A DNA stretch of 47,904 nt from a virus: positions 1 to 47,904 of IMG/VR virus record IMGVR_UViG_3300045283_000114. The stretch is one strand, 5' to 3'. Below are positions 4,936-41,638 of this stretch, in pieces. Each line of letters starts with the position of its first letter. Positions within the stretch are counted from its first letter, which is position 1. A program made the translations under genes and the position numbers. The notes beneath the pieces were generated by a model. It did no database searches. It saw only the letters and a list, made by a program, of their open reading frames with translations, and was not told the origin of the DNA.

Positions 4936-6549
4936 ATGCGCACGCTCCTCGCGGTTTTAGCTTTCCTTGCGGGGTTTCTCCCGAGCATTGCCGCGGCGCA
5001 GGCGCCTCCTCCCGTCCCGGCGCTGCCGGATACCGAGCGCCGCACGACCTATAGCCTCACCGCGCAGACTGGCCCATTTAGCGTGGGCTTTGCCCTCTAT
5101 GGTGACGGCACGGATTTTGGAAATTGGGTTCAAGTTTACCTGATTAGCGGCGTCGCCCCGAATATCACGGTCACGCAGATTCAGCCCGTCAGCGGCTTTA
5201 CGATGAGCTCGGCGACGGGCCCGATCGCCACCATCCCGCGGCCCATCACCGACGCCACGATCACGCTCACAACCGCACAGACCGGCACGCTGCAAATCGT
5301 CGGCGCCAGGAGGCCAAGACGCATTTCTCAATTCACGGAGAACCGCGGCGTCGCCGCCCGCGACCTCAACCAAGCAGTCACCGATATCATCGCGGAGAAC
5401 CGCGAGCGATGGGACCAACTCAATCGCGCTATCGTCGCGCCGCCGGGCGAATCTCTCGCCGCTCTGCCGCCGGCAGGCAACCGCGCAGGCGCGTTTCTGT
5501 GTTGGGATGCGACCGGCCTGATCCCACAAGCCTGTGGCACAGGAAGCGGCCTCGGCAATGTCACCGGACCGGGTTCCGCCGTGGTCGGCCATGTTGCGGT
5601 CTTCGCAAATACCGCGGGCACTCTGCTTTCAGATGGAGGCTCGGCCGGCACTGGCAGCGTGAACGGTCCCGGCTCGAGCACGGTCGGCCATGTGGCGACC
5701 TGGAACAATGTTGGCGGCACGCTGCTTCAAGACCCTGGCCTCACCATCACCGCCGGCACCGGCACGCTCACGATCGCCAATGCCAAGACGCTGACGGCCA
5801 ACAACTCGCTGACCTTTGCCGGCACTGACGGCACGACACAGACCTTCCAAGCCAGCGATACGGTTGTCGGTCGGGCAACCACCGACACGCTGACGAATAA
5901 GACCTACAACACGGCGGGAACTGGAAACGTCTTCCAAATTTCTGGCACGCAACTTTCGGCCCTGGGCGGTCTTTTCACGATCACTGGCGGCAATCTTACG
6001 TTTGCGAACGCAACTGCAAACACGACGTTTGGCAACTGGACCGGCTCGGCGGCGACGCCATCGTTCAATGCGATGCCGACTTGCAGCGCAACCGGCAATT
6101 TCCTCACGTATCTCAGTGGCACCGGCGTTCAATGTAACACCACGTTCCACGCGAGCGGATCGTGGACGCCCACGATCACAGGCTCGAGCACTTCTGGAAC
6201 CGGGCAGACCTACACGCTGCAAATCGGCTCCTATGAAGTGATCGGCCGCACTGTCATCGTTCGTTTCAATATCGTGGCCACTTCGCTCGGAACCGCAGCC
6301 GGCAATGTCCTGATCAGCAACTTGCCATTCACGAACAACGCAACAACCAACGACAACGGCACCTGCAATTTCTCAACCTATACCGTGACCGGATTGGCCG
6401 CGAGCAATGTCGGCCTCGGCGGCGTGATCCTTGGCGCGGTGACAAACGTCACAGTCACGCAATTTGGCAACACGGGCTCCTCGGCTCTGACCATAGCGCA
6501 GGCAGGCGGCACGCCATCGTTCAACGGTCATTGCATCTACCACACGTAG
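4936..6549 (+). CDS. Tail fibre protein with T7-type N-terminal domain and signal peptide
   Basis: Residues 1-23 are a classic Sec signal peptide (MRTLLAVLAFLAG then SIAAAQA), unusual for a fibre assembled in the cytoplasm. Residues about 38-160 match the T7 gp17 N-terminal tail-attachment pattern (beta-rich, then a DLNQAVTDIIAENRERWDQL helix). Beyond about 200 come Gly/Thr/Asn-rich beta repeats including ANNSLTFAGTDGTTQTF, a segment type I associate with Rhizobiales phage fibres, and a C-terminal beta domain with scattered Cys. Expected role is host receptor binding. It follows the ejection-protein genes and precedes the endolysin, the T7-like order. An alternative start without the signal peptide is not obvious. 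Confidence 0.75.
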   Translation: MRTLLAVLAFLAGFLPSIAAAQAPPPVPALPDTERRTTYSLTAQTGPFSVGFALYGDGTDFGNWVQVYLISGVAPNITVTQIQPVSGFTMSSATGPIATIPRPITDATITLTTAQTGTLQIVGARRPRRISQFTENRGVAARDLNQAVTDIIAENRERWDQLNRAIVAPPGESLAALPPAGNRAGAFLCWDATGLIPQACGTGSGLGNVTGPGSAVVGHVAVFANTAGTLLSDGGSAGTGSVNGPGSSTVGHVATWNNVGGTLLQDPGLTITAGTGTLTIANAKTLTANNSLTFAGTDGTTQTFQASDTVVGRATTDTLTNKTYNTAGTGNVFQISGTQLSALGGLFTITGGNLTFANATANTTFGNWTGSAATPSFNAMPTCSATGNFLTYLSGTGVQCNTTFHASGSWTPTITGSSTSGTGQTYTLQIGSYEVIGRTVIVRFNIVATSLGTAAGNVLISNLPFTNNATTNDNGTCNFSTYTVTGLAASNVGLGGVILGAVTNVTVTQFGNTGSSALTIAQAGGTPSFNGHCIYHT

Positions 6550-6554
6550 CAAAA

Positions 6555-7070
6555 ATGAAATCATCATACGATACGATTATCACCGGCGTCCTTGTGAGCG
6601 AGGGCGTTTATTCCAATGACGCGGGCGATCCTGGGGGGCCCACGAAATATGGGATTACGATTTGGGATGGGCGGGCCTACTGGAAAAAAAACGCCACTGC
6701 CGCGGACATGAAAGCGATGTCACTATCGGTAGCCAAGGAAATCTATCGAACAAAATATTGGGCCAAGATAGACGGCGACGATCTTCCGGCGGGCGTTGAC
6801 TATGCCGTGTTTGACTACGGTGTAAACTCTGGCATCAGCCGAGCGGCTAAAGTCCTACAGCGGCTTGTCGGAACGAAAGCCGATGGCATCATTGGCCCAC
6901 ATACTATTTTGGCAACCCGCGAGCACGATCAAATTGAACTTATCAATGACATTTGTGATGAGCGCCTAAACTTCCTGCACGATCTCGCATCGTGGAGACT
7001 TTTCGGAAAAGGCTGGAACTCCCGTGTAAGACGAGTGCGGACAGATTCACTCAAGCTCGCGCAAGGATAG
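6555..7070 (+). CDS. Endolysin, GH108-type N-acetylmuramidase
   Basis: Peptidoglycan hydrolase, 171 aa. The N-terminus carries the GH108 signature, with a catalytic Glu at about residue 16 in SEGVYSNDAGDPGGPTKYGIT, the usual E-G-x-Y...DPGG-T-x-x-GI pattern. The C-terminal half (VDYAVFDYGVNSGISRAAKVL, then KADGIIGPHT) matches the predicted peptidoglycan-binding domain that accompanies GH108. The ATG at 6555 is chosen because the upstream in-frame ATG at 6531 lies inside the fibre gene. There is no signal peptide or N-terminal membrane segment, so release should depend on a holin. DNA is more AT-rich than the neighbours, hinting at recent exchange. Confidence 0.88.
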   Translation: MKSSYDTIITGVLVSEGVYSNDAGDPGGPTKYGITIWDGRAYWKKNATAADMKAMSLSVAKEIYRTKYWAKIDGDDLPAGVDYAVFDYGVNSGISRAAKVLQRLVGTKADGIIGPHTILATREHDQIELINDICDERLNFLHDLASWRLFGKGWNSRVRRVRTDSLKLAQG

Positions 7071-7075
7071 CGAAC

Positions 7076-7620: not shown

Positions 7621-7688
7621 CGAAGCCGCGTGGCAGGCTAAGGCGGCGGTGGTCACGTCATAACCCGCCGCAACTTCTGGAGCGTCAA

Positions 7689-8561: not shown

Positions 8562-8562
8562 C

Positions 8563-9033: not shown

Positions 9034-9626
9034 CCCTCCACTTTAGCGATGGCGGCGCGGGCGCGCTTGGCCCATGCATCGTCTGAACTGGCGTTGCCCC
9101 TGCATTCAATACCTTCGGCGAGCAACGCGAGCAGCTCGACGTTACTGGCTTCTAGGCGCTCATTGTCGTTCGCCACGCTCTCGTGTGCGATCTGATAATC
9201 TTTCAAACGCTTCAACAGTCGCTCGATCTCGTCAACGGCCTCGTCCCAGCATTGGTAGTGAGATCGTCGCTCATTTCCCCTCCGCCGCAATGGCGGCCAT
9301 GCGTTGCTGGCCCGCAGCTGCTCGATCTCGGCGCACAACTTTGGATTAACGGCGTCGCCCACTTCGCCGCGTACTTCTTTGAGATTACGTTGAGCCCAAT
9401 CGATATTTTCGGCGCGCAGCCGCTCGCGCTCCTCGTTGACAGCGTCGTGCATGCGATGCCAGTAGTCTTGTAATCCGGCTAGCCGCTTGATCTCGGCGCG
9501 TAGCTCCGCATTTTCCATCTTAATTTCCTTAATGTGGTCTGGGTCGTCTAATTCTTCGACAAGCGCGCGCAGCCGTGCGATCTCTTGCACAAAGGCTCGC
9601 AGCCGCAGCTCCTCGTAAGCGCTCAT
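9030..9626 (-). CDS. Coiled-coil protein, 198 aa
   Basis: Almost the entire protein is Glu/Arg/Leu-rich with heptad-like spacing (IARLRALVEELDD, MENAELRAEIKRLAGL, DNERLEASNVELLALL), predicting a long coiled coil, and it ends DAWAKRARAAIAKVEG. It is the last gene of the leftward region, separated from the radical SAM gene by about 200 bp that carries TGCAACAT repeats, so it may have its own promoter. Similar small phage proteins with Glu-rich coils and conserved C-terminal Trp/Ala/Arg segments are common and uncharacterised. Confidence 0.65.
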   Translation of the reverse strand: MSAYEELRLRAFVQEIARLRALVEELDDPDHIKEIKMENAELRAEIKRLAGLQDYWHRMHDAVNEERERLRAENIDWAQRNLKEVRGEVGDAVNPKLCAEIEQLRASNAWPPLRRRGNERRSHYQCWDEAVDEIERLLKRLKDYQIAHESVANDNERLEASNVELLALLAEGIECRGNASSDDAWAKRARAAIAKVEG

Positions 9627-9654
9627 CTTGTACCCATTTGGATAGCCTGCTCAG

Positions 9655-9802
9655 TGCAACATATATGCAACATACACCCGCTAACCCATTGAAAATAAAG
9701 GGAAGAGCGGAATAAGGGTAAGATGCCGCTCGCGGTGTTGTGCTGCGGGAGTTTTGTAGGGATTTCAAGCGCTTAGCTCTGTGTCGCATGTTGCATGTTG
9801 CA
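9655..9802. repeat. Paired TGCAACAT repeats in inverted orientation
   Basis: The 206-bp gap between the two minus-strand genes holds four copies of one octamer. TGCAACAT occurs at 9655-9662 and 9666-9673, 11 bp apart or one helical turn. Its complement ATGTTGCA occurs at 9788-9795 and 9795-9802, overlapping by one base. The layout suggests binding sites for an unidentified regulator or the arms of a large hairpin. No coding frame is convincing in the gap. Confidence 0.5.
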
Positions 9803-9832
9803 TCATTTGTTGCCCAAAATTCCCCAATAGTT

Positions 9833-10696
9833 TCAGGCCTTCTCCAATTCTCTCGGCAGCTCCATGCAATATGACTGCGATATGGCGTGAATGATTGCCG
9901 GTCGCGCCCACCGCCGCGAGAATTCCCGCCAACCCGGTCCAGGCATGTGCTTCTGCTGCGATGGCGTCTCGGGCCGCCACAGCATGGCGAACGGCGTGAA
10001 ACCGATCGCAGTCATCTGCTCAAGCCGACGCTGAGCCAAGTCGAAAGTGTCTTTCGGATATCCCACCAAGACATAGACCCGCATGCGGTGTGACTGCGGT
10101 GTGAACCCTGCGGCGAGCAGTCGGCGAGCCGCATGCTCAAGCGTCTCGAATGCATCGCCAGGGTCATAGGCGAAGAACATGTTCGGCCGAGGCGTCAGGC
10201 CCGCAAGCAGATCTACTTGATAGTCCTCAAGCGATAGTGCCTCCAGGCCGCCGGTAAATTCGACACGTCGCTTTTGCCGACGCAGCATTGCAAAGACCGC
10301 TTCGACATGCTCGCGTGGACAGGCTAACAGGTTGTCATCGAGGATGTTCCAGCCGTCAACGATCGGCAACAACCGAGGCACAGGATCGCGCTTCCATACT
10401 GAACAGAACCAGCAGCGTCGCGGACACCCCCTCGACGTGAACACATATCCAGGCTTGATGTAACGGCCAGGAATGAAGTCCGCTCCCGCGTCCCCGTATG
10501 CGACACCTCCAACCTTGACCGGCGCAACAGCGTGCCATTGTTCAGCAAGTTGCTCGGCGATCGCCTTGTCGTAGGTGAACGTCACCGAAACGTGAACCTC
10601 GTCCGCTTCGGCGAAAAAGTCAGGCGGCCCGAAGTAGGCGAGTTCATCATCGGGCGTTGCCTTGGTTTTCCGGGGAAAGACGCGGATCAGCTTCAC
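9833..10696 (-). CDS. Radical SAM protein, 287 aa
   Basis: The cluster motif is C-x3-C-x2-C at Cys91, Cys95 and Cys98 in TSRGCPRRCWFC, the canonical radical SAM [4Fe-4S] ligand set. It is preceded by a FIPGRYIKPGYVF segment like the linker after B12-binding-type domains, although the 90-residue N-terminus is too short for a full cobalamin domain. Later FTGGLEALSLEDYQ and VYVLVGYPKDTFDLA fit the TIM-barrel core. The GTG start at 10696 overlaps the upstream gene's stop (GTGA) and follows a GGGGGTGGA ribosome site; the longer upstream frame is not used. Substrate is unknown. It is the distal gene of the early leftward operon, so it acts early or in host takeover. Confidence 0.8.
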   Translation of the reverse strand: MKLIRVFPRKTKATPDDELAYFGPPDFFAEADEVHVSVTFTYDKAIAEQLAEQWHAVAPVKVGGVAYGDAGADFIPGRYIKPGYVFTSRGCPRRCWFCSVWKRDPVPRLLPIVDGWNILDDNLLACPREHVEAVFAMLRRQKRRVEFTGGLEALSLEDYQVDLLAGLTPRPNMFFAYDPGDAFETLEHAARRLLAAGFTPQSHRMRVYVLVGYPKDTFDLAQRRLEQMTAIGFTPFAMLWRPETPSQQKHMPGPGWREFSRRWARPAIIHAISQSYCMELPRELEKA

Positions 10697-10887
10697 TCCA
10701 CCCCCGCTGGTTCGATGCAAGATAACTGCAACATGAACGCTGCTCGTGACATGACCCACTGCCCCCCAATCTTTTTCGCCGGCAACCGTCCGTGCTCTAG
10801 CAGATGGTAAGTCGCGCGCGTGCTCTTGCCGATCGCCGCGGCAATGGCCGGCGCGCCCCAAAGGATGTCGCAATCATCCATGCTCAT
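10693..10887 (-). CDS. Excisionase-like helix-turn-helix protein, 64 aa
   Basis: This short protein reads DILWGAPAIAAAIGKSTRATYHLLEHGRLPAKKIGGQWVMSR, the winged-HTH pattern of MerR/excisionase (HTH_17) proteins, in which the helix pair is followed by a 'lpakkiGgqW' wing. The ATG at 10887 overlaps the upstream peptide's stop (ATGA); a second ATG at 10881 is better spaced from a GGGGA ribosome site. Its own stop overlaps the radical SAM GTG. It could be a Xis-like directionality factor or a repressor, but no integrase is in the window. Confidence 0.7.
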   Translation of the reverse strand: MSMDDCDILWGAPAIAAAIGKSTRATYHLLEHGRLPAKKIGGQWVMSRAAFMLQLSCIEPAGVE

Positions 10888-10973
10888 TCCCCTGGATTGA
10901 ACATGATGCACCACGGCAAGAGCAAAGCCAGAGCCACCATGAACAGCCAACCTATATGGACGCATTCACTCAT
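10884..10973 (-). CDS. 29-aa single-pass membrane peptide
   Basis: A 29-codon frame lies between two coupled genes: its ATG overlaps the preceding stop (10973/10966) and its TGA overlaps the following ATG (ATGA at 10884-10887). The peptide has one hydrophobic helix (IGWLFMVALALLLPWCIMF) with short polar ends. Overlap at both ends in an operon built this way is good evidence that it is translated. Function unknown; candidates are a membrane-acting inhibitor or superinfection factor. Confidence 0.55.
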   Translation of the reverse strand: MSECVHIGWLFMVALALLLPWCIMFNPGE

Positions 10974-11133
10974 CGCTTTTTATCGGCTCAAGCGTAGATA
11001 CCCATCGTTCAAGTTCTGTGCGGTCAAAACTCCCGTCTTTGTAGGGATGTAAAAACCCGCGGCGAATTGCCTCGTCAATCATCGCTACTACTGTCTGATA
11101 TTGCTCGATCTGCTTCATCTTACGTTGATTCAC
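10966..11133 (-). CDS. Small protein, 55 aa, in early left operon
   Basis: The GTG at 11133 overlaps the upstream stop (GTGA) and has a GGAGAG ribosome site, giving 55 residues; an ATG five codons on is an alternative. The sequence (IEQYQTVVAMIDEAIRRG, then DGSFDRTELERWVSTLEP) is helical and soluble. No family recognised. Both ends overlap neighbouring genes, so it is part of the coupled chain leading to the radical SAM gene. Confidence 0.6.
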   Translation of the reverse strand: MNQRKMKQIEQYQTVVAMIDEAIRRGFLHPYKDGSFDRTELERWVSTLEPIKSDE

Positions 11134-14860: not shown

Positions 14861-15365
14861 TACTTGGCTGAGGCCAATATCGGCGCAGGAACTACAGCAT
14901 CTCGACACGCGGCCGATCCTTGGCATTGACCCCGGCATAACCGGGGGAATCGCCTTCCTGTACCTGGACGGCCTGTTCCCGGCCGGCCGTGTCAACACGA
15001 TCGACATCCCCACCGTCGCCGGCGAAGTCGACGTCGATTCCCTCGCGCACATCGTCGAAGAATGCGACCCCCGCGTCGCCATCATCGAACGCGCCAATGC
15101 CATGCCCAAGCAGGGTGTCAGCTCAACCTTCAAATATGGCGTTGCGTATGGGGCGCTCCGCACGATCTGCACGCTGAACCGCGTGCCCTACCATCTGGTC
15201 ACGCCCGGCAAGTGGAAGAACCATTTCAAGCTCGACAGTGACAAAGAGAAGTCGCGCGCGCTGGCAATCCAATTCTGGCCCGGCACCAACCAGTTTTCCC
15301 GCAAGAAAGACCACGGCCGCGCCGAGGCCGCGCTGATCGCCCTCTATGGCTGGACGAACCTATGA
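14853..15365 (+). CDS. RuvC-like Holliday junction resolvase, 170 aa
   Basis: RNase H-fold nuclease with the RuvC acidic set: Asp26 in LGIDPGITGGIAF, Glu79 in VAIIERANAMPKQGVSST, and Asp153/Glu158 in KKDHGRAEAALIALYG. RuvC enzymes cut four-way DNA junctions; in phages they resolve recombination and replication branches before packaging. It starts at GTG 14853, overlapping the GapR-like gene by 8 nt, and ends in an ATGA overlap with the next. It functionally complements the exonuclease/annealer pair on the left arm. Confidence 0.85.
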   Translation: MADTWLRPISAQELQHLDTRPILGIDPGITGGIAFLYLDGLFPAGRVNTIDIPTVAGEVDVDSLAHIVEECDPRVAIIERANAMPKQGVSSTFKYGVAYGALRTICTLNRVPYHLVTPGKWKNHFKLDSDKEKSRALAIQFWPGTNQFSRKKDHGRAEAALIALYGWTNL

Positions 15366-15607
15366 CCAAGATGACGAACCAAGTCGCGCGGCAGCTTTTC
15401 GCGATGTCGAAGAAGACAAAGAGCGACCCGTTCCGAGAAATGCGCAACGAGCGTTACCAGCGCACTTTCACGGATGAGCAATTCCCGCACAAACCGCGCG
15501 GCAACAGGTTCAAGCCGGTGGACGAGGAACAAAAACGCGAGTGGCGGATGTTAGCAGAGCGAACCAACCCCTATTCGCGCTACAAGAAGGTTCCGCCAGT
15601 TGCTTGA
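15362..15607 (+). CDS. Small basic protein, 81 aa
   Basis: The ATG at 15362 overlaps the resolvase stop (ATGA). The product is Lys/Arg-rich and mostly hydrophilic (MRNERYQRTFTDEQFPHKPRGNRF, then EWRMLAERTNPYSRYKKV). The next gene's TTG start lies inside its last codons. It may bind nucleic acid, judging only by charge; no family recognised. Confidence 0.55.
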   Translation: MTKMTNQVARQLFAMSKKTKSDPFREMRNERYQRTFTDEQFPHKPRGNRFKPVDEEQKREWRMLAERTNPYSRYKKVPPVA

Positions 15608-16073
15608 ACTGCCCGGCCGGCTGTTGGCGATCGCGCGGACCTACACGGAACTTCACGACGCTTTGCGCGCGCGCAGCAACGAGCTCGAGGTTTCACGGGA
15701 AACAATCGACGACATTGCCGGCTTTGAAAGCGGCTATACGGCAAAACTACTCTCGCCCGTGCCGATGAAGCGATTAGGGCTGCAATCGCTCGGCCCGGTT
15801 TTGACCGTGCTCGGCCTCGCATTGGTGGTGGTGGAAGACCACGAAGGACTGCGGCGAATCAGTCACCGCTTGAAAAAACGCAACCATGCCTCCGTACGAA
15901 TGCCCACGAGGAAAAGGCACAAGCGCCTAGGGCCGGAATGGGGGAGGCTCATGAGCGCCAAGCGCAACCTGAAACTCTCGCCCCGGCGCCGCAGTCAGAT
16001 CAGCCGACACGCTGCGGAGGTAAAATGGCGAGCGATCAGATTTAAACGGGCGGCGATGGAGCAGCTAAAATGA
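15600..16073 (+). CDS. HTH-containing protein, 157 aa
   Basis: The start is TTG at 15600, with an AAGG ribosome site about 9 nt upstream; no ATG fits. Residues about 15-75 (ELHDALRARSNELEVSRETIDDIAGFESGYTAKLLSPVPMKRLG, then PVLTVLGLALVVVED) look like an XRE-type helix-turn-helix fused to a short hydrophobic strand-helix. The C-terminal 70 residues are strongly basic. It is coupled to the next gene by ATGA. A DNA-binding regulatory role for the right early operon is likely but unproven. Confidence 0.6.
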   Translation: MLELPGRLLAIARTYTELHDALRARSNELEVSRETIDDIAGFESGYTAKLLSPVPMKRLGLQSLGPVLTVLGLALVVVEDHEGLRRISHRLKKRNHASVRMPTRKRHKRLGPEWGRLMSAKRNLKLSPRRRSQISRHAAEVKWRAIRFKRAAMEQLK

Positions 16074-16318
16074 AAGAGTTACGCAATCAAGCGCTGGAGG
16101 GGCTCGTCGAAGGTCTCCGTAAAGAGATTGGGACCTGTTTTTTGCTATATCTACGAGAGGAAATAGAGTTTGACGCGCTTGAACACCATCTGGACGATAT
16201 TTTTGAATGCTTTGAAATTGTAAGCGCAGCCATTACAGAGAGGGTTGACGAGAACGGCGCGCTTGCGACGACTCAATCCATTCCTTCGGCACGCGATAGC
16301 GGTAAAAAAACCAAATGA
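16070..16318 (+). CDS. Acidic small protein, 82 aa
   Basis: Coupled by ATGA to the HTH protein. The sequence is helical and acidic (LVEGLRKEIGTCFLLYLREEIEFDALEHHLDDIFECFEIV). DNA is AT-richer than the flanks. Its last 86 nt overlap the 3' end of a convergent minus-strand HTH gene, so the two transcripts could interfere. No family recognised. Confidence 0.5.
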   Translation: MKELRNQALEGLVEGLRKEIGTCFLLYLREEIEFDALEHHLDDIFECFEIVSAAITERVDENGALATTQSIPSARDSGKKTK

Positions 16319-16469
16319 GCCGCTCCACATATAGCGGAATCCTGTTTTTGTTGTCGCCGCCCTCTTGCCATCGCATGTGCTGGCGCCAACTACAACCTAT
16401 CGCGCGCGCCCATTCGTCGTTTGTGTACCCTAGCCGTTCACGTGCGTTCTTGTATTCTAGATGAGTCAT
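16233..16469 (-). CDS. Antisense-oriented HTH protein, 78 aa
   Basis: From ATG 16469 the product reads LEYKNARERLGYTNDEWARAIGCSWRQHMRWQEGGDNKNRIPLYVERLIWFFYRYRVPKEW, an XRE-like HTH in which 'RLGYTNDEWARAIG' is helix 1-2 and 'WRQHMRWQEG' the recognition part. A GAGGG element precedes the start. It is divergent from the gene at 16665 and converges on the gene at 16070 with an 86-nt overlap. It may be a second repressor controlling the accessory region. Confidence 0.62.
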   Translation of the reverse strand: MTHLEYKNARERLGYTNDEWARAIGCSWRQHMRWQEGGDNKNRIPLYVERLIWFFYRYRVPKEWIESSQARRSRQPSL

Positions 16470-16626
16470 GGTCGTGCCCTCGGCGCCCTCGCGGGCTTTG
16501 ATGGAGCGGCGATGATAGGGGCCAGGGGGCGCCAACCCTCTGGCCCCGCTCTTTTGCAAAAATGCCACACTGACTAATTGTCATCCGCTCCCCCCCCCGG
16601 AATTCAGGTGCCTGTAAGTCAGCCGT

Positions 16627-16639
16627 GCGTAATGTACGC
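16627..16639. promoter_or_regulatory. Palindrome GCGTA-ATG-TACGC in divergent promoter gap
   Basis: The 195-bp gap between the divergent genes at 16469 and 16665 contains a perfect 5-bp inverted repeat with a 3-bp spacer, flanked by imperfect GCC/GGC extension, plus a run of nine C (16590-16598). It is a plausible operator for the HTH protein at 16233. No strong promoter was found in the gap. Confidence 0.4.
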
Positions 16640-16664
16640 GGCCAGACAGAAACGGGAGGGCAAA

Positions 16665-16916
16665 ATGCAAACATTGCTGGACTTTGGCGACTATCCTGAG
16701 ATCGACACCGATGGAGTCGGCGACGTGCAGGCGATCGGTCATAAGGCCATCATCTACATGTTCCGCTGGCGCCGGATTGACGGTCTATTTCAGCCCGTTA
16801 TCGTCGCCGCCGTCGCCCGACCCTTGACAGGATTCGACGCCCCGCTTCCGCATAAGCGCGACCTGGAAGCGATGCCGCAACTAGTCAGGATTGCGGCACC
16901 GCAGGTATTCAACTGA
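16665..16916 (+). CDS. Hypothetical protein, 83 aa
   Basis: The ATG at 16665 has a GGGAGGG ribosome site 5 nt upstream and gives 83 residues with alternating strands (AIIYMFRWRRIDGLFQPVIVAAVARP). No family recognised. It is divergent from the HTH gene and its stop overlaps the end of the convergent gene at 16909 by 8 bp. Confidence 0.55.
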   Translation: MQTLLDFGDYPEIDTDGVGDVQAIGHKAIIYMFRWRRIDGLFQPVIVAAVARPLTGFDAPLPHKRDLEAMPQLVRIAAPQVFN

Positions 16917-17406
16917 CCGCTCGCCTCGCCATAAGGCTCGAGAGCTTGATTTGTCCGTTGTGCTTCAAGTCCTTGGCCGACCGCTCCGTGATTTCCCACG
17001 GGGCGCCATCATAGCCGGGCAGATCGTGAAGCGCTGCGGACTTGATGTCTTGCAGTATCCGCCACGCGAGCGTCGAATCCCAATCCTCGGTTTCGCAAGA
17101 CTGATATTCGAGGCAATGGCAAGCCTTGATGATCTCGACAGGCGTAAGCGGAGTCGGGAAAGGCTTGTATTTGTAGTCGGACGCCGCGTCTTTTGCCTCA
17201 TCGGCATAATCCGGGCTTGTCGCGTCATACCGAGCTACCACCGATCGCACGTTCTCATCCATGAGAATCCGCCCGATCTCCTCGGCAGTAAACGACGTGA
17301 TGTCGCGCCGCTCGCGGGTTGCCGCCACGTAGAACGAAACCCGCTTTTCGACGGCATACGTCACGATCGCGTTGATGTGCATATCGCCGCAAATGAATGC
17401 AGACAT
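16909..17406 (-). CDS. Conserved phage hypothetical protein, 165 aa
   Basis: From ATG 17406 (GAGG ribosome site 9 nt upstream) the protein has recognisable segments: GDMHINAIVTYAV, then ENVRSVVARYD, then PVEIIKACHCLEYQSCETEDW, then LPGYDGAPWEI. This layout, with a CxxYQSCE core and a final LPGYD, is one I recall from many uncharacterised prophage proteins. Several Cys and the sequential motifs suggest an intracellular binding domain. The much longer upstream frame on this strand is rejected because it lacks these features. Confidence 0.65.
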   Translation of the reverse strand: MSAFICGDMHINAIVTYAVEKRVSFYVAATRERRDITSFTAEEIGRILMDENVRSVVARYDATSPDYADEAKDAASDYKYKPFPTPLTPVEIIKACHCLEYQSCETEDWDSTLAWRILQDIKSAALHDLPGYDGAPWEITERSAKDLKHNGQIKLSSLMARRAVS

Positions 17407-17498
17407 AGCTTTTACCTCGCGGTGTTCAGCCGGCGCCATGCCGGCCGGATGGCAGCGCCATCGTGAGGCGGCGCACTCGGCGCCGCCCTGCGATAGCG

Positions 17499-19782: not shown

Positions 19783-19847
19783 TGTGGCTTTTGATCGTTG
19801 TTGGGGTGGGATTTGCGGCGCTGTGTGTTTGGGCGCAGCTGTCATGA
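19782..19847 (+). CDS. 21-aa membrane peptide
   Basis: ATG 19782 overlaps the previous stop (TGATG) and the TGA overlaps the next ATG (ATGA). The peptide is almost one hydrophobic helix (LLIVVGVGFAALCVW). Coupling on both sides is its main support. Confidence 0.4.
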   Translation: MWLLIVVGVGFAALCVWAQLS

Positions 19848-20158
19848 GCACCGGCGTTCTGCGGATGATTGTGTCCTTTCTGATCGCGATGACGTTGGCG
19901 CGTGCGCATGAGGCGCCGAGCGGTTGGGCGTATCCGAAGGATTGTTGTGGCGGTGATTGCCATCCTGTTCCGTGCGAGGAGGTTTCTGCAGTTGCGCCGC
20001 GGGATGGCTTTGTTGGGCCGGACTACGAGTGGCATGGCCTGACGTTTCGCAAGCCGCAGCATCAATTCTCGCCTGACGGGGCGTGTCATGTGTGTGTGGG
20101 CAACTTCAAGCCACTGCTGCCGCGGTGCATATTCACGCCGATACCTGCGGGGACGTAA
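19844..20158 (+). CDS. Secreted Cys-rich protein, 104 aa
   Basis: A signal peptide (residues 1-21, MSTGVLRMIVSFLIAMTLARA) is followed by a mature region with seven Cys (34, 35, 39, 44, 81, 84, 95) and conserved-looking segments: SGWAYPKDCCGGDCHPVPC, YEWHGLTF, then CHVCVG and PRCIF. I recall this arrangement as a small exported protein family in Rhizobiales genomes and phages, probably disulfide-bonded in the periplasm. Start fixed by the ATGA overlap. Function unknown; fits the cluster of exported accessory genes. Confidence 0.65.
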   Translation: MSTGVLRMIVSFLIAMTLARAHEAPSGWAYPKDCCGGDCHPVPCEEVSAVAPRDGFVGPDYEWHGLTFRKPQHQFSPDGACHVCVGNFKPLLPRCIFTPIPAGT

Positions 20159-21710: not shown

Positions 21711-22031
21711 ATGAAAATGCTCAAAGCAATCCTCTTTTGCGTTTTCCTCGGTGCCTGCTCATCGAGCACAACGCCGCCAACTTCGGTGGACGTGATCGGC
21801 GCCATCGAGGCTCAATGCAAGTTCGTTGCGACCGCATCGTCGATCGAGCAGTTCATCGTCACCGCCATTGGTCATCCCGAACTGATCGGTGGCGTCGTGA
21901 CGGTCAACGCCATCGCGACCGCGATCTGCAACGCGCTTCCGCCTCCGGTGATGGCGGCCGAGGGCAACGCCAACCAGGGAGAAGTTACGTTCACGGTCGG
22001 CGGGGTCGAGATTAAGGGCTATCGCAAGTAG
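21711..22031 (+). CDS. Lipoprotein, 106 aa
   Basis: N-terminal KAILFCVFLGAC ends in a lipobox (L-G-A-Cys16), so the protein should be lipidated and anchored in the envelope. The mature part has a hydrophobic central helix (EQFIVTAIGHPELIGGVVTVNAIATAICNAL) and a C-terminal GEVTFTVGGVEIKGY strand. The next lipoprotein's GTG overlaps its stop by one base. Phage lipoproteins often block superinfection or act as outer spanins; neither is shown here. Confidence 0.65.
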   Translation: MKMLKAILFCVFLGACSSSTTPPTSVDVIGAIEAQCKFVATASSIEQFIVTAIGHPELIGGVVTVNAIATAICNALPPPVMAAEGNANQGEVTFTVGGVEIKGYRK

Positions 22032-22660
22032 TGCGGAACCTCGTGGCGTTCTGTTTGCTGACGCTGGCGATTGGTTGCAGCCAATCCTCGCCGCCTGCGC
22101 CCGTACCGTCCCCGTGGGCAATCGGCCCGGTTGTCAACGGCGTAAACGATAGCAGCGGGATGCCCCCGTACATGCTGCCGGATGGGGCGGGCGGGTTTTA
22201 TTTCGATTTTCCACAAGCCGGCCACGTCAATTACGTGACTACAACGCCCGCCGGCACGCTCTCAGCCATCAGCCTGTCCTATGTGATTAGCGCGCTGACC
22301 GGCGCGCCCCCGGCATTTCTCGAGGTTGATTGCGGCACTCCTGGCTGCACGCCTGGGCCCGGACTGATGCGGCTCTACGTGCAGCGCTGCGGCGACGATT
22401 GGGGCGGGGACGCAACCGGCAAGGCGAGCTTTCGGTTTTGGTCGGCGCCGACGCCTCTGATCCTAGGCGGGACAATAGTCTACCGGCCAATAACAGGCTG
22501 GACGAATGTTGACGGCCAGCAGGACGCGGCCGCCCTGCAAGTCACGCTCGCGAATGCGTGTTCCGTTGGGTTCACGTTCGGCGGCATGTTCGCGGGGCAT
22601 GGCGTGATCTCGAGCGCGCCGGCGCGTTTCACGCTCAAGGCCTTCTCGACTCAGCAGTAG
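22031..22660 (+). CDS. Second lipoprotein, 209 aa
   Basis: A GTG start overlaps the preceding stop. A hydrophobic N-terminus (NLVAFCLLTLAIGC) ends at Cys16 with A-I-G before it, a weaker lipobox than that of the neighbour. The mature part is a beta-sandwich-like domain (GPVVNGVNDSSGMP, HVNYVTTTPAGTLSAISLSYVI) with a few Cys that may pair. A Ser/Pro-rich linker follows the lipobox. It looks like a surface-exposed binding domain; family unknown. Confidence 0.6.
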   Translation: MRNLVAFCLLTLAIGCSQSSPPAPVPSPWAIGPVVNGVNDSSGMPPYMLPDGAGGFYFDFPQAGHVNYVTTTPAGTLSAISLSYVISALTGAPPAFLEVDCGTPGCTPGPGLMRLYVQRCGDDWGGDATGKASFRFWSAPTPLILGGTIVYRPITGWTNVDGQQDAAALQVTLANACSVGFTFGGMFAGHGVISSAPARFTLKAFSTQQ

Positions 22661-30117: not shown

Positions 30118-30330
30118 ATGGCGCTCCTGACCGTCTCCATCAACGATCCCACGTTTAACCGCAAATCCGATGAGGTTGTGTTCCTTACGAGAGCACTTGA
30201 CGTCATCAAGACGGAGCTCGGTCGTGGGAATGGAACCGTAACGAGCGGCACAATCCTCGATTACACCACCGGACTTGGACCCACGTCTCTCGGCACCTGG
30301 ACCTACACGCCGAGCGCGGCAAATCCCTAA
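30118..30330 (+). CDS. 70-aa head-region protein, also a C-terminal module of a tail protein
   Basis: The whole product (LLTVSINDPTFNRKSDEVVF, then RALDVIKTELGRGNGTVTSG, then LGTWTYTPSA) is nearly the same as the last ~72 residues of the 656-aa protein at 39127, roughly 70% identical by eye with one RALDVIKTELGRGNG block unchanged. It sits between scaffold and capsid genes, the usual place of a small decoration or assembly factor. Starts 4 nt after the scaffold stop. Which copy is ancestral is not clear. Confidence 0.65.
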   Translation: MALLTVSINDPTFNRKSDEVVFLTRALDVIKTELGRGNGTVTSGTILDYTTGLGPTSLGTWTYTPSAANP

Positions 30331-31980: not shown

Positions 31981-31991
31981 GCTGAAACACG

Positions 31992-32492
31992 ATGGAATTC
32001 GCCTTTACCAAATTCAGCGGCGATCTCGTTACCAACACACCCACGTTGCGGGTGTGGTTGTGGGACACGGGCCCGATCCCACCGATCGCGCCCGCGCGAC
32101 CCAAGCCGCCGAAAGGTCAGGAAGGCGACCCCGAATACGATCTCGCGATGATCGACTTTCGCGAGCAGATGCACGACTACGAAAAGGCGCTTCTGAATTA
32201 TCGCAGGGCGAAAGAAGACCACGCCGACTGGTTCGAGAAATACAAAGGCCCGTTCGAGTTTCGGCAATGGTCATGTGATGCGCGTGTTTCGCTCGAACGC
32301 GACCCCAAGCGATATTTCGTGAGCTCGCGCAATCCAGGCTGGGAGAAAACCAAAAATCTCGGATTGCCGAAAGGCATGGAACCCGGCGAGTGGCACTACA
32401 AGAACCAAGAGCGGATCGCGGCCGGCGAGGCCGACGAAGCCGAGGAAAGACGTCAAGACCCCGTTTTCGGATCATTGGAGGCTCGAGCATGA
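31992..32492 (+). CDS. Conserved structural-region protein, 166 aa
   Basis: The sequence has a beta-rich N-terminus (MEFAFTKFSGDLVTNTPTLRVWLWDTG), a helical charged centre (DFREQMHDYEKALLNYRRAKEDHADWFEKY) and RDPKRYFVSSRNPGWEKTKNLGLPKG near the C-terminus. I recall similar proteins in Rhizobiales phages after the capsid genes; function unknown. It is coupled to the next gene by ATGA. Confidence 0.6.
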   Translation: MEFAFTKFSGDLVTNTPTLRVWLWDTGPIPPIAPARPKPPKGQEGDPEYDLAMIDFREQMHDYEKALLNYRRAKEDHADWFEKYKGPFEFRQWSCDARVSLERDPKRYFVSSRNPGWEKTKNLGLPKGMEPGEWHYKNQERIAAGEADEAEERRQDPVFGSLEARA

Positions 32493-33091
32493 ACCGCTTG
32501 CTGAAAACTGTGCTTGCTGTCAGCGCTGCCGCGCTGCTCGGCATCCCGTTGGTGCTCGTGCCGCCGAAGCCCGTCAAGGCGAACGGCGCAGTCATGTGCC
32601 AGGGCGATGTGTCCGGTGCTTCGACCGGATCACGCACTGTCGGCGGCACGCTGTCGTCAGTACCGAGCGGAACGCTTTATACCCTAAGCGGTAATGGTTG
32701 TGCTTATGTTCAAGCGGGTGACATCGGCTATTTTCTCTCGCAGGGCTATACGTCGTCTGGAAATTTAGGCACGCCGCTTGTCTTCACGACCGGCGTCCAA
32801 ACCGGCACAACTGACATCGTGCTCGGAACTATCCCTGCAAGTTCCGGCGTTGTGTCAGTCGGCATTACCAATTCGACCGCGAACGCCGTGACCGGCGGCA
32901 TCTCCATCGGCTCGACCGCGAACGGTACGCAAATCGCTGCCGCCATTACGTGTGGTGCGAACTGCGTCGTGCTTTCGCCTGTGCTGGCCGCGACTTATTC
33001 GGCCACCGCCGCGACGACCATCCACGCTGCCGCTGTCACGGCCTGGAACAGCGCCAACGTCGCGATCACCGTGAATTGGAGTTACTTCTAG
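32489..33091 (+). CDS. Exported beta-rich protein, 200 aa
   Basis: A signal peptide (residues about 1-32, KTVLAVSAAALLGIPLVLV then PVKANG) precedes a Thr/Ser/Ala/Gly-rich beta domain with scattered Cys (VMCQGD, GNGCAYV, TCGANCVVL) that could form disulfides. Coupled by ATGA to the preceding gene, which is a virion-region gene, so this is an exported product encoded inside the structural block. Family unknown. Confidence 0.65.
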   Translation: MNRLLKTVLAVSAAALLGIPLVLVPPKPVKANGAVMCQGDVSGASTGSRTVGGTLSSVPSGTLYTLSGNGCAYVQAGDIGYFLSQGYTSSGNLGTPLVFTTGVQTGTTDIVLGTIPASSGVVSVGITNSTANAVTGGISIGSTANGTQIAAAITCGANCVVLSPVLAATYSATAATTIHAAAVTAWNSANVAITVNWSYF

Positions 33092-33960: not shown

Positions 33961-33961
33961 G

Positions 33962-34348: not shown

Positions 34349-34357
34349 GAATAGATC

Positions 34358-37003: not shown

Positions 37004-37005
37004 TG

Positions 37006-37014: not shown

Positions 37015-37045
37015 CCCGTTTCCGCCCACACGCACTAATCCGGCC

Positions 37046-37657
37046 ATGCTTACCGTGCTACGAGCCTTTCTCGCGGTGCTTCTCTTTGCGCTTCCGGCGC
37101 AGGCTCAGATCACCTTTGGCACCCCCAACCCGTCCGTAAATGCCATCGGACAGGTGATGATGTGCGTCAACTCGGCAAACGCCGCTGTGGCTTGCCAGGG
37201 CGCCGCCGTCACCGCGACATTCTCGGGTGCCGATACGAGCTCGGCCGTTGCCACACTGCCGGCGGCGGCTGGCGCGACCACCTACATCTGCGGCTTTACG
37301 ATCTCCGGGCTCGGCGCCACGTCCGCGACAAATGTCATCGGCACGATCGCCTCGCTCACCGGCGGCACGGCCAGCCACGAATACAGCTTTCCCCTCGGCG
37401 CAACGGTCGCAAGCTCGCCCGTTACCGTCCGGTTCACGCCCTGCATTCCGGCGAGCGCGGTCAACACCGGGATTCCGGTTACGGTGCCGGGCGCGGCCGG
37501 AAACACGAGCACGAACATCGTTGCATGGGGCTTTCAGAGCGGCGGTGCGGTTGTCATTGTCGCCCCGACCGGACAGTTTTTGTTGATGGCGGACGGCGTG
37601 AACAAGGTGTTGCAGACTAACGGAGTGGCAAAGATATGTTTAGCCGGCACCTGTTGA
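37046..37657 (+). CDS. Exported beta protein, paralogue A, 203 aa
   Basis: Signal peptide MLTVLRAFLAVLLFALPAQA with cleavage before QITF. The mature domain (IGQVMMCVNSANAAVACQGAAV, then TTYICGFTISGLGA, then TPCIPA, then GAAGNTSTNIVAWGF) is repeated almost segment for segment in the gene at 41138, so the two are paralogues. Conserved Cys pairs suggest a disulfide-stabilised beta-sandwich. The C-terminus has an extra QFLLMADGVNKVLQT extension absent from the other. Likely periplasmic or surface; function unknown. Confidence 0.65.
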   Translation: MLTVLRAFLAVLLFALPAQAQITFGTPNPSVNAIGQVMMCVNSANAAVACQGAAVTATFSGADTSSAVATLPAAAGATTYICGFTISGLGATSATNVIGTIASLTGGTASHEYSFPLGATVASSPVTVRFTPCIPASAVNTGIPVTVPGAAGNTSTNIVAWGFQSGGAVVIVAPTGQFLLMADGVNKVLQTNGVAKICLAGTC

Positions 37658-38784
37658 AATATCTGATCGCTGCGGCGCTGGCCTTTGCGCCATCTTTGGC
37701 GCGCGCCGACTCTACTGTCTCGAGCATGACTGCGGCCGGGGTATTGACTGGCACCGAACTGTTCTACTGCGTGCAAGGCGGTGCAGATCGAAATTGCACC
37801 GCCAACCAAATCAAGACGTTCACCGGCAGCGGCGGCACGCCCGCCGGCGCTTCGCTGACGCTTCAATACAACAATGCAAGCGCCTTTGGTGGCATGAGCG
37901 GAACGAGTTGGGACGACACCAACCGCTCGCTGACGATGACGGGCTCGACGATCACGGTATCGCATCCCGTCCTCGACATGACGCAGACGTGGAACAACGC
38001 CGCTACCACGTTCACCGGATTACGGCTCAACGTCACCAATACGTTGAGTGCGGCTAATTCGGCATTGATTGATTTGCAGCTTGGCGGATCAAGTAAATTC
38101 AAGGTCGCCAACAACAGTGGCATTGCGTTCATTTCCCTTGGGACCGGCAACGCAAGCGCTACGGAAATTGATATATTGGGCAGCAATGCTACCGCTGGTA
38201 GCAGAAGCATTATTTTCCAAGATGAAGGCACCAGTCCTGCAATAAACATTGGTTACAATGGACTTGTGACCTGGTCCGGTGGAGATGCGTCTCCACCAGA
38301 TTTAATTCTTACCCGTGACGCCGCCAACATCCTCGCCCAACGCAACGGCGTCACCGCAAACAGTTTTCGCGTCTACAACACCTTCACGGACCTGAGCAAT
38401 TATGAGAGAGGCGTGCAGGATTGGACGACGACCGCCAACACGCTGACGATTGGGGCACAGGCTGCGGGCACGGGCACGTTGCGACCTGTTGCTTATGTCG
38501 GCGTACACCATAAGTTTGCCGGCACCGCGCCAACCCCCTCCGCGTGCGGCACCACGCCCGCCCTCACCGGGAGCGATACCCACGGCACCGTGACGATGGG
38601 CACGGGCACGCCTACCGGATGCGTCATCACGTTTGCGGTCGCCTATGTAAGCGCACCTGACTGTGTGGTGACGTGGCAAACCAATCTCGCCTCGATGACA
38701 TACACGATCAGCACGACCGCCATCACGCTCACGCAAACCGCGACTTCCAGTAACAAAGTCAACTACGTCTGTCACGGGACATAA
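37636..38784 (+). CDS. Exported tail-fibre-like protein, 382 aa
   Basis: Signal peptide MFSRHLLKYLIAAALAFAPSLARA precedes a fibre-like sequence: QGGADRNCTANQIKTFTG, then repeated Asn/Thr/Ser/Gly beta turns, and a C-terminal part (GTAPTPSACGTTPALTGSDT, then VSAPDCVVTWQ) resembling phage fibre/tail tip domains. It overlaps the previous gene by 22 nt. A fibre with an export signal is unexpected. Role may be receptor binding or host-surface display. Confidence 0.6.
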   Translation: MFSRHLLKYLIAAALAFAPSLARADSTVSSMTAAGVLTGTELFYCVQGGADRNCTANQIKTFTGSGGTPAGASLTLQYNNASAFGGMSGTSWDDTNRSLTMTGSTITVSHPVLDMTQTWNNAATTFTGLRLNVTNTLSAANSALIDLQLGGSSKFKVANNSGIAFISLGTGNASATEIDILGSNATAGSRSIIFQDEGTSPAINIGYNGLVTWSGGDASPPDLILTRDAANILAQRNGVTANSFRVYNTFTDLSNYERGVQDWTTTANTLTIGAQAAGTGTLRPVAYVGVHHKFAGTAPTPSACGTTPALTGSDTHGTVTMGTGTPTGCVITFAVAYVSAPDCVVTWQTNLASMTYTISTTAITLTQTATSSNKVNYVCHGT

Positions 38785-38793
38785 GGAGACAAC

Positions 38794-39114
38794 ATGATCC
38801 GGCGTTTTCTCTGTTCAATCGCCTTCTTGGTCGCACTGGTTGCGACGGCCGAAGCAGCAACGCTAACGATCTCCATCACCGGCTCTGCATTGCCCACTGT
38901 CAATCAGACGAAGACCTACACGGTCAGTGATACGGACCTCCAAGCTGTATTGAATTGGGCGGCGTCTAATTATGCTGCCTCGCTTCCGGTATCGCCCACG
39001 AACGCGCAAATCCTACTGGCATGGGTGCAGGGCTTCATCAACGCTACTAAGAATGCAGTGGTGCAATTCCAGACGCCGCCTCCCGCACCGCCGCCGCCGC
39101 CGACCATCCAGTAG
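38794..39114 (+). CDS. Small exported protein, 106 aa
   Basis: Signal peptide MIRRFLCSIAFLVALVATAEA, then a small beta/alpha domain (TISITGSALPTVNQTKTYTVSD, then AQILLAWVQGFINATKNAV) and a Pro-rich tail. It lies between two fibre-like genes with short gaps. Phage structural accessory or lysogenic conversion product; unknown. Confidence 0.6.
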   Translation: MIRRFLCSIAFLVALVATAEAATLTISITGSALPTVNQTKTYTVSDTDLQAVLNWAASNYAASLPVSPTNAQILLAWVQGFINATKNAVVQFQTPPPAPPPPPTIQ

Positions 39115-39126
39115 CAGTGAGGCATT

Positions 39127-41097
39127 ATGGCGCTTGCCGATTTTGTCGGGCTGATCCTTGCAAACTGGAACATGATCCAGTCGCCGCAGGATTTTCGCAC
39201 CGGCAATACTGACCCAAATGGAAATGGAACATGGGCAACTGCCAATGCGTCGATCGGCACTGGTCTTGTCGGCCCTGATGGGTTAACGACCGCGCAAAGC
39301 CTGGTAGAGAACTCGGCGACCTCCGAGCATACTGTCACGACCCCAGGGTCGGGCATATCTGCGTACGTTTTTTGCGGATCAACATCGAATGTCTCCGGCT
39401 ATCCGTTCCGGTTCACGCTAATTGGCAAGCCCGGATCGCGCACTCGGTTAGTTGTCAAATATACCGATACATTCAGCGGATTAAATACATCACTCGGCTT
39501 TGATTTGGCTGGGCTCAATTCCAATTACGCCGACGTTACGACAGGCACGACGATTTCAAACAGAACTATGACTAACATTGCCGGTGGCTTTGTCAAAACA
39601 ACGTGGGATTTGCAATTCACGAACGCAGGGCAGACGGACTTCACAATAACGATCAAACTCGACAACGGCTCGGGGACCGGCGCGCTAAGTACGAATTACG
39701 CAGGCAATGGCAGCGGCAACGTGCTGTTGTGGTTTTTCGGAATGCTGCCGGTGGCAGCACAGACTCAGTTGGCCCATCAGAGTTATTTCAGCGGCTTCGA
39801 TAGCATCGGTGAGATCGACATCGGCGACACGCAAGCCCCCGGCTTCAACTGGTATCCGCACAATCGCTGGCCCAACTATGCTCTTGGTCCTCCTCTCCTG
39901 GCAACAAACATACGCACGGCCCCGACAACGCCAGCGAGCGCCATTCATATAAACAGTAGCATTCTCACATTGGATTTAGATGTCTCGGGCTACGGGTCTG
40001 GACTGATGTCGTGCTGTGTGGACCCGCATGACGTGACGAAATTTGTTGGAAGAACTTTCAAAGCCCCCGTCGTCTTTGAAGCGAGCATGACCTACGACAA
40101 AACCAATGGCTCCATTCAAAACGTGGGATATTCGGGTTCTTCGATCGCATGGTGGGGCACAAACACGACTGCTTATAATGGCGGCAGCCACGCCTCTGAA
40201 CTTGATCATATGGAGGCCTCGACCGGCCCGAGTTCGTTCAAAAGCTCTGCCTTTGACAGCATTCTTGCTCCTGTAAATACGGCTGCTGAGTTTCAAAATC
40301 AGGTGGGATTGCATCCGCCTAACACTTCAACTTTCATCAAAGTTGCAACGATGATTCTTCCGCGCAGCACAGATTCAAACAATCTGGGCGCTAAACTCAA
40401 TTTTTATAATGGTCAGTGGGCGCCAGGCTCTTTCGAACCGATATGGCTGTTGCAAACCACACCGCCGAACGATTTCACCATCTTTGAGACTGCGGCCTGG
40501 AACCTCATCATCGGCGCCGGGTCTGGAACAATCCCAGGCCCGATTGTCGTAAATGCCCCGGTGCAATTCGATTTTGTGCGCGTGTTTCAGGCATTCGTGG
40601 CGACGCCGACCATCGTTTCATTTGCACCTAATGTCGGCGGCGTTGATCCAACCCGCAGCCTAACACTAGTTGGAACGGCGGTGATCGGCGGCACTGTTAC
40701 GGTCTTCGATGGAGCGAGCAACCTAGGCACCGCATCTGTGGATGGCGGTGGCAATTGGAGCTTCACGGTGACGGGCCTGCCTAACGGCACGCATACATTT
40801 ACCGCGATCGCTACCGACTCAACCGGCAACACCAGTGCTGCATCTTCGCCGTTTCCAGTCACGATAAACGTGCTGGCCTTGTTGACCGTCACCATCAACA
40901 ATCTCAGCCCGCAGTTCGATAAGAGGTCGGCCGAAATCGCCTTCCTCGAAAGGGCGCTCGACGTCATAAAGACCGAGCTCGGCCGCGGCAACGGAAACGT
41001 GACATCGGGCGTCATCCTCGATTTTTCGGAAGTGCCCGGATCGTCACCTACACCGCTCGGTACATGGACCTATAACCCGTTCGCGCCTAATCCCTAG
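39127..41097 (+). CDS. GH16-like candidate depolymerase with Ig-like and 70-aa C-terminal domains, 656 aa
   Basis: Order: a carbohydrate-binding-like beta domain (about 1-200), a concanavalin-type domain with ELDHME at Glu358-Asp360-Glu363, which fits the ExDxxE active site of GH16 glucanases/agarases, a bacterial Ig-like domain (about 505-585, with VTVFDGASNLGTASVDGGGNWSF, GTHTFTAIATDSTGNTS), then a C-terminal ~72-residue module nearly identical to the 70-aa gene at 30118. GH16 enzymes cleave beta-glucans. In phages such proteins degrade surface polysaccharide. No signal peptide. The catalytic call needs structural support. Confidence 0.58.
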   Translation: MALADFVGLILANWNMIQSPQDFRTGNTDPNGNGTWATANASIGTGLVGPDGLTTAQSLVENSATSEHTVTTPGSGISAYVFCGSTSNVSGYPFRFTLIGKPGSRTRLVVKYTDTFSGLNTSLGFDLAGLNSNYADVTTGTTISNRTMTNIAGGFVKTTWDLQFTNAGQTDFTITIKLDNGSGTGALSTNYAGNGSGNVLLWFFGMLPVAAQTQLAHQSYFSGFDSIGEIDIGDTQAPGFNWYPHNRWPNYALGPPLLATNIRTAPTTPASAIHINSSILTLDLDVSGYGSGLMSCCVDPHDVTKFVGRTFKAPVVFEASMTYDKTNGSIQNVGYSGSSIAWWGTNTTAYNGGSHASELDHMEASTGPSSFKSSAFDSILAPVNTAAEFQNQVGLHPPNTSTFIKVATMILPRSTDSNNLGAKLNFYNGQWAPGSFEPIWLLQTTPPNDFTIFETAAWNLIIGAGSGTIPGPIVVNAPVQFDFVRVFQAFVATPTIVSFAPNVGGVDPTRSLTLVGTAVIGGTVTVFDGASNLGTASVDGGGNWSFTVTGLPNGTHTFTAIATDSTGNTSAASSPFPVTINVLALLTVTINNLSPQFDKRSAEIAFLERALDVIKTELGRGNGNVTSGVILDFSEVPGSSPTPLGTWTYNPFAPNP

Positions 41098-41105
41098 TGC
41101 GTTGC
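41097..41105 (+). repeat. GTGCGTTGC motif upstream of paralogue B
   Basis: Copy of the 9-mer, starting at the last base of the preceding stop and 41 nt before ATG 41138. The following GCGGC and GCCGC segments can pair. Confidence 0.5.
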
Positions 41106-41137
41106 GGCTACGGGCGCCGCGATCCAATGAGAAACCC

Positions 41138-41638
41138 ATGCGCAGACTCCTTGCAGCCATCGCCCTCCTCCTAGCAGCGGGGCTCCCTGCGCCGGCGCAA
41201 ATCACGTTTCCGACGCCGAATACCGGCGTGATCGCGATCGGCCAGGTGCAGATGTGCATCAATGCGGCCGGCAACGCGGTCGCCTGCCAGGGCATCAACG
41301 TCACCGGCTCGTTCTCAGGGGCCGACACAACTACGGCGGTGGCGACCCTTACCGGCACGAGCGGCAAAACCACCTATATCTGCGGCTTTCAGGTCAACGG
41401 CCTCGGGCTCACCACCGGCGCCACGGTGAACGTCGCGGTGGCCAGCGTCGTCGGCGGCAATACCCTCAATTTCGCCTATACGTTCCCCACCGGCGCCACC
41501 GTCGTCGCGACGCCGGTTTCTCAGACTTTCACGCCCTGTATTCCGGCAAACGTGGCTGGCACCAACCTCACCGTTACCGTGCCCGGCGGCGCCGGCAATA
41601 CGAGCACCAACATCACCGCCTGGGGTTACCAGCAATGA
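41138..41638 (+). CDS. Exported beta protein, paralogue B, 166 aa
   Basis: ATG 41138 (rather than the upstream in-frame start) begins a signal peptide (MRRLLAAIALLLAAGLPAPA, cleavage near QITF) and a mature domain closely similar to the gene at 37046 (IAIGQVQMCINAAGNAVACQG, TTYICGFQVNGLGLTTG, TPCIPANVAGT, GGAGNTSTNITAWGY). Both have the GTGCGTTGC element ~40 nt before the start. It is coupled to the tail tube gene by ATGA. Function unknown. Confidence 0.65.
   Translation: MRRLLAAIALLLAAGLPAPAQITFPTPNTGVIAIGQVQMCINAAGNAVACQGINVTGSFSGADTTTAVATLTGTSGKTTYICGFQVNGLGLTTGATVNVAVASVVGGNTLNFAYTFPTGATVVATPVSQTFTPCIPANVAGTNLTVTVPGGAGNTSTNITAWGYQQ

Follow-up and report, generated by a model that had tools for sequence, protein, structure and literature searches.

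Podoviruses of an alphaproteobacterial clade may build their virions in two compartments, a proposal towards which we lean, if only slightly: particles would be assembled in the cytoplasm, disulfide-bonded fibres and companion proteins would be made in the periplasm, and the two would be joined only at lysis. The representative studied here is the podovirus of IMG/VR virus record IMGVR_UViG_3300045283_000114, the whole stretch of which (positions 1 to 47,904; 47,904 bases) is referred to as the window. An earlier reading of this DNA, hereafter the original prediction, described Sec signal peptides on a set of late-region products, and its interpretation is partly supported: the leaders are real, that of the tail fibre among them, and are at odds with virion assembly in the cytoplasm.

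Genome and late-region organisation

The closest catalogued phages, epsilon15/phiV10-type phages and Dunaliella virus SI2, are distant, and no near DNA match to the window was found in the phage collection searched. ORF 45523 reads past the end of the window and, once the ends are joined, reaches a stop at base 78; the record is therefore circularly permuted, having been cut inside a gene, and the genome is probably complete. It follows that the late genes form one unbroken region, which starts at 24.7 kb and runs through the joined ends to about 9 kb (Table 1). The protein encoded across the window ends (1-78 plus 45523-47904) is an internal virion protein of 819 aa that is free of cysteine.

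Two further features of the window were noted. The 656-aa product of 39127-41097 contains a Big_13 domain, and its C-terminal 74 residues are 65% identical to the product of a 70-aa gene (30118-30330) between scaffold and capsid; the common module looks like an attachment unit for the capsid or virion that has been reused as a fusion. Among the leftward early genes, an ORF at 9833-10873 (-) includes the sequence CPRRCWFCSVW, a radical-SAM-like CxxxCxxC cluster.

Table 1. Late-region features of the window, with the basis for each where given (SP, signal peptide)
Feature	Coordinates	Strand	Basis or remarks
Virion structural protein (phrog_684)	2272..4806	+	Fibre gene directly 3'
Sec-exported tail fibre, 537 aa, 6 mature Cys	4936..6549	+	Leader in 48/49 relatives; SP, residues 1-21; T7 gp17-type docking domain, about residues 27-165; variable C-terminal part
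Predicted fibre signal peptide MRTLLAVLAFLAGFLPSIAAA, cut before Q	4936..4998	+	Rule score 14.0; region under purifying selection in relatives
Mature fibre N-terminal region, predicted virion-docking domain, T7 gp17 fold	5014..5505	+	AF2, Foldseek, BFVD
Endolysin-like gene (family name presumed), without leader, 3' of fibre	6555..7070	+	Sequence; homologues in L020, L037, L074
Terminase	24695		
Portal	27412		
Scaffold	29281		
Capsid	30351		
Exported protein, 200 aa, long signal peptide, 4 Cys, N-terminus MNRLLKTVLAVSAAALLGIPLVLVPPKPVKA	32489..33091	+	L096 orthologue
Exported beta-sandwich protein, 203 aa, SP MLTVLRAFLAVLLFALPAQA↓Q, 6 mature Cys	37046..37657	+	Paralogue of 41138
Exported fibre-like protein, 382 aa, SP MFSRHLLKYLIAAALAFAPSLARA↓D, 6 mature Cys	37636..38784	+	
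Exported small protein, 106 aa, SP MIRRFLCSIAFLVALVATAEA↓A, no mature Cys	38794..39114	+	
Exported beta-sandwich protein, 166 aa, SP MRRLLAAIALLLAAGLPAPA↓Q, 4 mature Cys	41138..41638	+	
Tail tube-type protein, without leader	42373..44616	+	Late operon shared with fibre
Internal virion proteins	from 45523 round to 4806		

Signal peptides of the late genes

Sec leaders are present on all six of the late genes to which they had been ascribed, namely those starting at 4936, 32489, 37046, 37636, 38794 and 41138. They were scored by a rule of our own over the n-, h- and c-regions, distinct from SignalP, which at a cut-off of >=12 accepted 11/12 exported Escherichia coli proteins, 0/22 cytosolic proteins and 0/6 inner-membrane proteins. 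Five of the six score 12.7-15.2, and that of 32489, at 9.2, lies under the cut-off and is backed by its L096 orthologue, the leader of which independently scores 12.85 and which has 4 mature cysteines. All six predicted Sec/signal peptidase I leaders are thereby confirmed at the level of sequence, and the product of 32489 is probably cleaved at VKA↓N.

None of the exported genes had an informative match when the window proteins were scanned against Pfam and PHROG. Homologues of several were found in relatives. The two paralogues, 37046 and 41138, have six homologues in other viral contigs, all with leaders and even cysteine counts, one protein being present in two of these contigs and one copy being truncated where its contig ends; the paralogues' beta-sandwich model resembles, at low-to-moderate scores, carbohydrate-binding modules and the fibre tips of Bdellovibrio. 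A homologue of 37636 that bears a signal peptide and 8 cysteines is encoded at L128 14788-16023, and the homologue of 38794 in L135 lacks a leader and starts at the mature position.

Leaders are also found elsewhere in the window. Two consecutive genes between the early and late regions, at 21711-22031 and 22031-22660, have lipoprotein leaders with lipoboxes LGA↓C and AIG↓C respectively; in relatives, lipoproteins lie near the lysis genes. A further exported small protein (HEAPSGWAYPKDCCGGDCHPVPC), with 7 cysteines and a 41% identical homologue in L011, is encoded at 19844-20158, and a similar cysteine motif follows a leader in Microcystis phage Mwe-JY08 (L204 29-388), L106 and L091. This exported phage family is widespread and violates the even-cysteine rule described below.

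Conservation of the fibre leader

Relatives of the fibre were sought with the N-terminal 164 residues of the mature protein, the leader being left off such that it could not bias the search. The search returned members from 44 viral contigs and from 6 loci in bacterial genomes, five of these loci being from Bradyrhizobium, and the fibres appear to belong to a large virus family of Bradyrhizobium-type soil bacteria. The leader is conserved in relatives: 48/49 distinct fibres possess one, with a charged n-region and a hydrophobic core, ending in A-x-A↓Q ahead of a conserved PALPD motif. Position +1 is Gln in 44/47, among which -1 is Ala in 41/44 and -3 is Ala in 35/44. The mean identity of the leader is 46%, as against 64% for the docking domain, and in pairs at 80-90% identity its pN of about 0.2 against a pS of about 0.55 indicates purifying selection. 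By contrast, such a leader is present in 0/167 orthologues of ten other genes of the phage group, mostly virion and packaging genes (portal, capsid, tail tube, internal virion proteins, terminase, scaffold and endolysin), and in 0/51 ordinary T7-type fibres.

The sole leaderless fibre recovered by this search, that of L011, starts (MPSPVAVPALPD) exactly at the mature site, and nests within the leader-bearing clade of the tree (support 94/80), from which it follows that leadered and leaderless forms interchange. Two fibres of bacterial genomes, L227 and L228, also lack a leader and begin at the mature site; L227 has two cysteines and L228 none. A different arrangement is found in the Bradyrhizobium genome locus L225 (reverse strand, about 9165-11087), where the leader and first mature residues run straight into the C-terminal part; the docking domain is largely absent, 8 mature cysteines are present, and the gene is either a decayed prophage gene or one encoding an exported protein with a role off the virion.

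Identity of the fibre and its docking domain

An AF2 model of the mature N-terminal domain (pLDDT 78) had as its top Foldseek matches in the PDB two T7 gp17 entries, 7ey9_a and 7boz_a, followed by the tails of LME-1, Kp9, P-SCSP1u and E1004, with probabilities of 0.89-1.00 (1.00 for T7 gp17), a best E value of 1.4e-3 and modest TM scores of about 0.3-0.4; matches in the BFVD viral structure library were to tail fibres and tailspikes. A profile of 35 leaderless syntenic fibres also matches the window fibre (E = 4.5e-10). PF03906 (Phage_T7_tail) has no match in the window, there is no Pfam match among 44 members of the fibre family, hhalign of the family against T7 gp17 gave E values of 0.06-0.11 at a probability of <1%, and a PDB sequence search returned chance matches only. 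As the direct profile comparison with T7 gp17 is not significant, the original designation of a T7-type tail fibre rests on the fold and on the syntenic profile, both of which uphold it; Pfam and direct comparison do not.

The gene's position is that of a tail fibre, immediately behind the ejection-protein genes of the tail operon, and in distant relatives a leaderless T7-type fibre is found directly behind the 2272-type virion protein. The C-terminal parts of the family match tail-fibre, tail-spike and pectin-lyase PHROGs, and one member, the L088 fibre, ends in a Peptidase_S74 chaperone. The docking domain is the most conserved part of the fibre and is under purifying selection (dN/dS 0.04-0.26). 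Each of the near-complete genomes has one docking-domain gene (6/6), and no second docking-domain fibre was found in these six. On these grounds the premise that exported fibres are lost to the virion is probably mistaken. This predicted docking fold and the single gene that encodes it are, like the leaders, the cleavage motif and its conservation, read directly from sequences and the models built on them.

Cysteine parity

Proteins oxidised in the periplasm tend to have their cysteines paired, and hence to have an even number of them. The mature cysteine count, which ranges from 6-20 per fibre, is even in 42/45 complete leader-bearing fibres (binomial p = 4e-10) and odd in 3/45; these comprise the first 40 fibres (38 even) and an out-of-sample set from Bradyrhizobium genomes (4/5 even), the frameshifted L229 having been left out. 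Relatedness cannot account for this parity, since 16/17 representatives were even (p = 1.4e-4) when the C-terminal parts were clustered strictly (25% coverage). Other exported proteins of the phage group are similarly biased (44/47 even, p = 1e-10). By contrast, the controls were near balanced, with even counts in 13/27 leaderless syntenic fibres (Fisher p = 2e-5 against the leader-bearing fibres) and in 78/149 non-exported genes of the same loci. Exported fibres have 1.77 cysteines per 100 aa, compared with 0.46 for non-exported genes and 0.25 for ordinary T7-type fibres, and in many loci, among them L103, L120, L125, L128 and L136, the ejection proteins adjoining a cysteine-rich fibre, up to 1,353 aa in length, lack any cysteine, a juxtaposition for which export of the fibre would account.

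Because parity is found in exported proteins and is absent from the controls, the leader is very probably functional and the fibres exported and disulfide-bonded; we infer strongly from the even counts that both the export and the pairing are real. Parity reports the pairing of cysteines, and is silent on the compartment in which the virion meets the fibre.

Clusters of exported genes are found in the same region of relatives. That of L088 (1392-8004) contains five, with 2, 4, 4, 8 and 8 mature cysteines, and others are present in L005, L095 and L128. One late gene of L095, at 15322-17460 (-), encodes a 712-aa protein with 13 cysteines and a twin-arginine-like leader (RRKFLAG) among neighbours with Sec-type leaders, and its product possibly uses Tat export.

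A model for fibre maturation

In the pathway proposed here, the tail fibre and several companion adhesion-type proteins would be made in the cytoplasm as pre-proteins, exported through the host Sec machinery and processed at A-x-A↓Q by signal peptidase I, whereupon fibres and companions would trimerise and form disulfide bonds in the periplasm. DNA-filled virions would meanwhile be assembled without fibres in the cytoplasm. Once holin and endolysin opened the cell, virions and periplasmic fibres would mix, and the T7 gp17-type docking domain, by then the mature N-terminus, would attach the fibre to the tail as the last step of assembly.

Trimerisation in the periplasm and docking at lysis are steps that we only infer. 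Docking at lysis is the simplest reading of an exported fibre that is the sole docking-domain protein and has that domain under purifying selection, and late addition is physically reasonable, given that completed P22 particles can take up tailspikes in vitro. The likely benefits would be disulfide-stabilised fibre tips and the keeping of sticky fibres from receptor precursors in the cytoplasm. Against docking at this stage, fibres set free at lysis would be diluted, and the L225 protein, with its leader, even cysteine count and largely missing docking domain, fits a role off the virion, or decay.

Alternative explanations

That the fibres mature in the periplasm and dock at lysis onto virions made in the cytoplasm is the best explanation of these observations, and one that we hold to be moderately probable. 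Its main rival, which we consider rather unlikely, is that the exported fibre acts off the virion, in the periplasm, at the envelope or after being freed at lysis, as an adhesin, as a decoy that blocks receptors or as a factor in superinfection exclusion, with the virion using some other adhesion device. The strong support for export is common ground, L225 has a leader and a C-terminal part with little of the docking domain between them, and the phage-fibre-like MAT proteins exported by Bdellovibrio function off the virion (PMC10769870). However, an off-virion function sits poorly with selection to preserve the docking domain more than any other part of the fibre, with the want of another docking-domain gene in the six near-complete genomes, with the gene's occupation of the tail operon slot where distant relatives keep ordinary leaderless fibres, and with the leaderless L011, which has a single fibre directly behind its tail tube gene.

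Two of the remaining explanations had been offered by the original prediction and are disfavoured. It is improbable that the fibre exists in two forms, one initiated at the annotated start and exported, the other cytoplasmic through internal initiation or inefficient export, with only the latter entering virions: 33/51 fibres have an in-frame start-type codon near the mature N-terminus, and the Val before PALPD is encoded by GTG in 24/50, but this GTG is not conserved, paired cysteines would be needless in a cytoplasmic protein, and a Shine-Dalgarno-like sequence precedes the internal candidate in 0/51, a weak objection as only 11/51 main starts have one. More doubtful still is an uncleaved leader that anchors the protein through its hydrophobicity, in the virion or in the inner membrane, such that the protein is never periplasmic. 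Nearly all members have the hydrophobic N-terminus that this would need, but A-x-A↓Q is kept while the hydrophobic core diverges and leaderless homologues begin at the mature residue, leaving retention unsupported, and the even-cysteine signature also tells against it. Least likely of all is misannotation or chance, with true starts downstream and leaders untranslated; 4936 and 37046 do lack a good Shine-Dalgarno sequence, yet this explanation is already contradicted by the maintenance of the leader across 48 fibres, by its ratio of pN to pS and by the cysteine parity of the fibres. Conservation and parity likewise ruled out the signal peptides being the product of chance or shadow ORFs.

Significance and comparison with known systems

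Textbook assembly of tailed phages is cytoplasmic, and the pathway proposed here would, if true, be a new one for these viruses. Morphogenesis would then involve a further compartment and have an obligatory dependence on a host pathway, since the fibre would have to pass through Sec, be cleaved and oxidised, and meet its virion at lysis. Exported fibres would let phages evolve receptor-binding tips stabilised by disulfide bonds. Where and when the fibre joins the virion would be directly testable in Bradyrhizobium lysogens, spontaneous release of podoviruses by Bradyrhizobium being known (PMC11599138), and a leader combined with even cysteines provides a simple sequence signature for exported virion proteins elsewhere. 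No precedent for an exported tail fibre of a tailed phage was found in the literature searched, which was mainly open-access, subscription journals lying largely outside its scope. The appearance of DsbA in Klebsiella phage screens has been ascribed to host surface proteins (PMC13412088), and was rejected as support for fibre export.

The exported family resembles T7 gp17 and other podovirus fibres (PF03906) in its N-terminal docking fold, tail-operon position, trimer-type C-terminal parts and, in one member, S74 chaperone, and differs in having a Sec leader, high and even cysteine counts and no Pfam-level match. Similarly, the epsilon15/phiV10-type relatives, Dunaliella viridis virus SI2 and Microcystis phage Mwe-JY08 share the fibre slot after the ejection proteins and a homologous docking domain, whereas their fibres are without a leader and their cysteine counts without a parity bias. 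Host Sec is already known to serve phage late proteins, in that endolysins such as fOg44 Lys44 and the SAR endolysins are exported by Sec leaders (PMC6116005), although these are lysis enzymes rather than virion adhesion proteins. The MAT fibres of Bdellovibrio, which consist of a signal peptide, a beta-rich domain of about 130 aa, a phage-fibre-like trimer and sometimes S74 (PMC10769870), have, compared by architecture, the same type of organisation as the exported phage fibre; by contrast, they are bacterial predation proteins that are neither encoded by tailed phages nor known to dock to a virion, while the phage docking domain matches those of phage tails.
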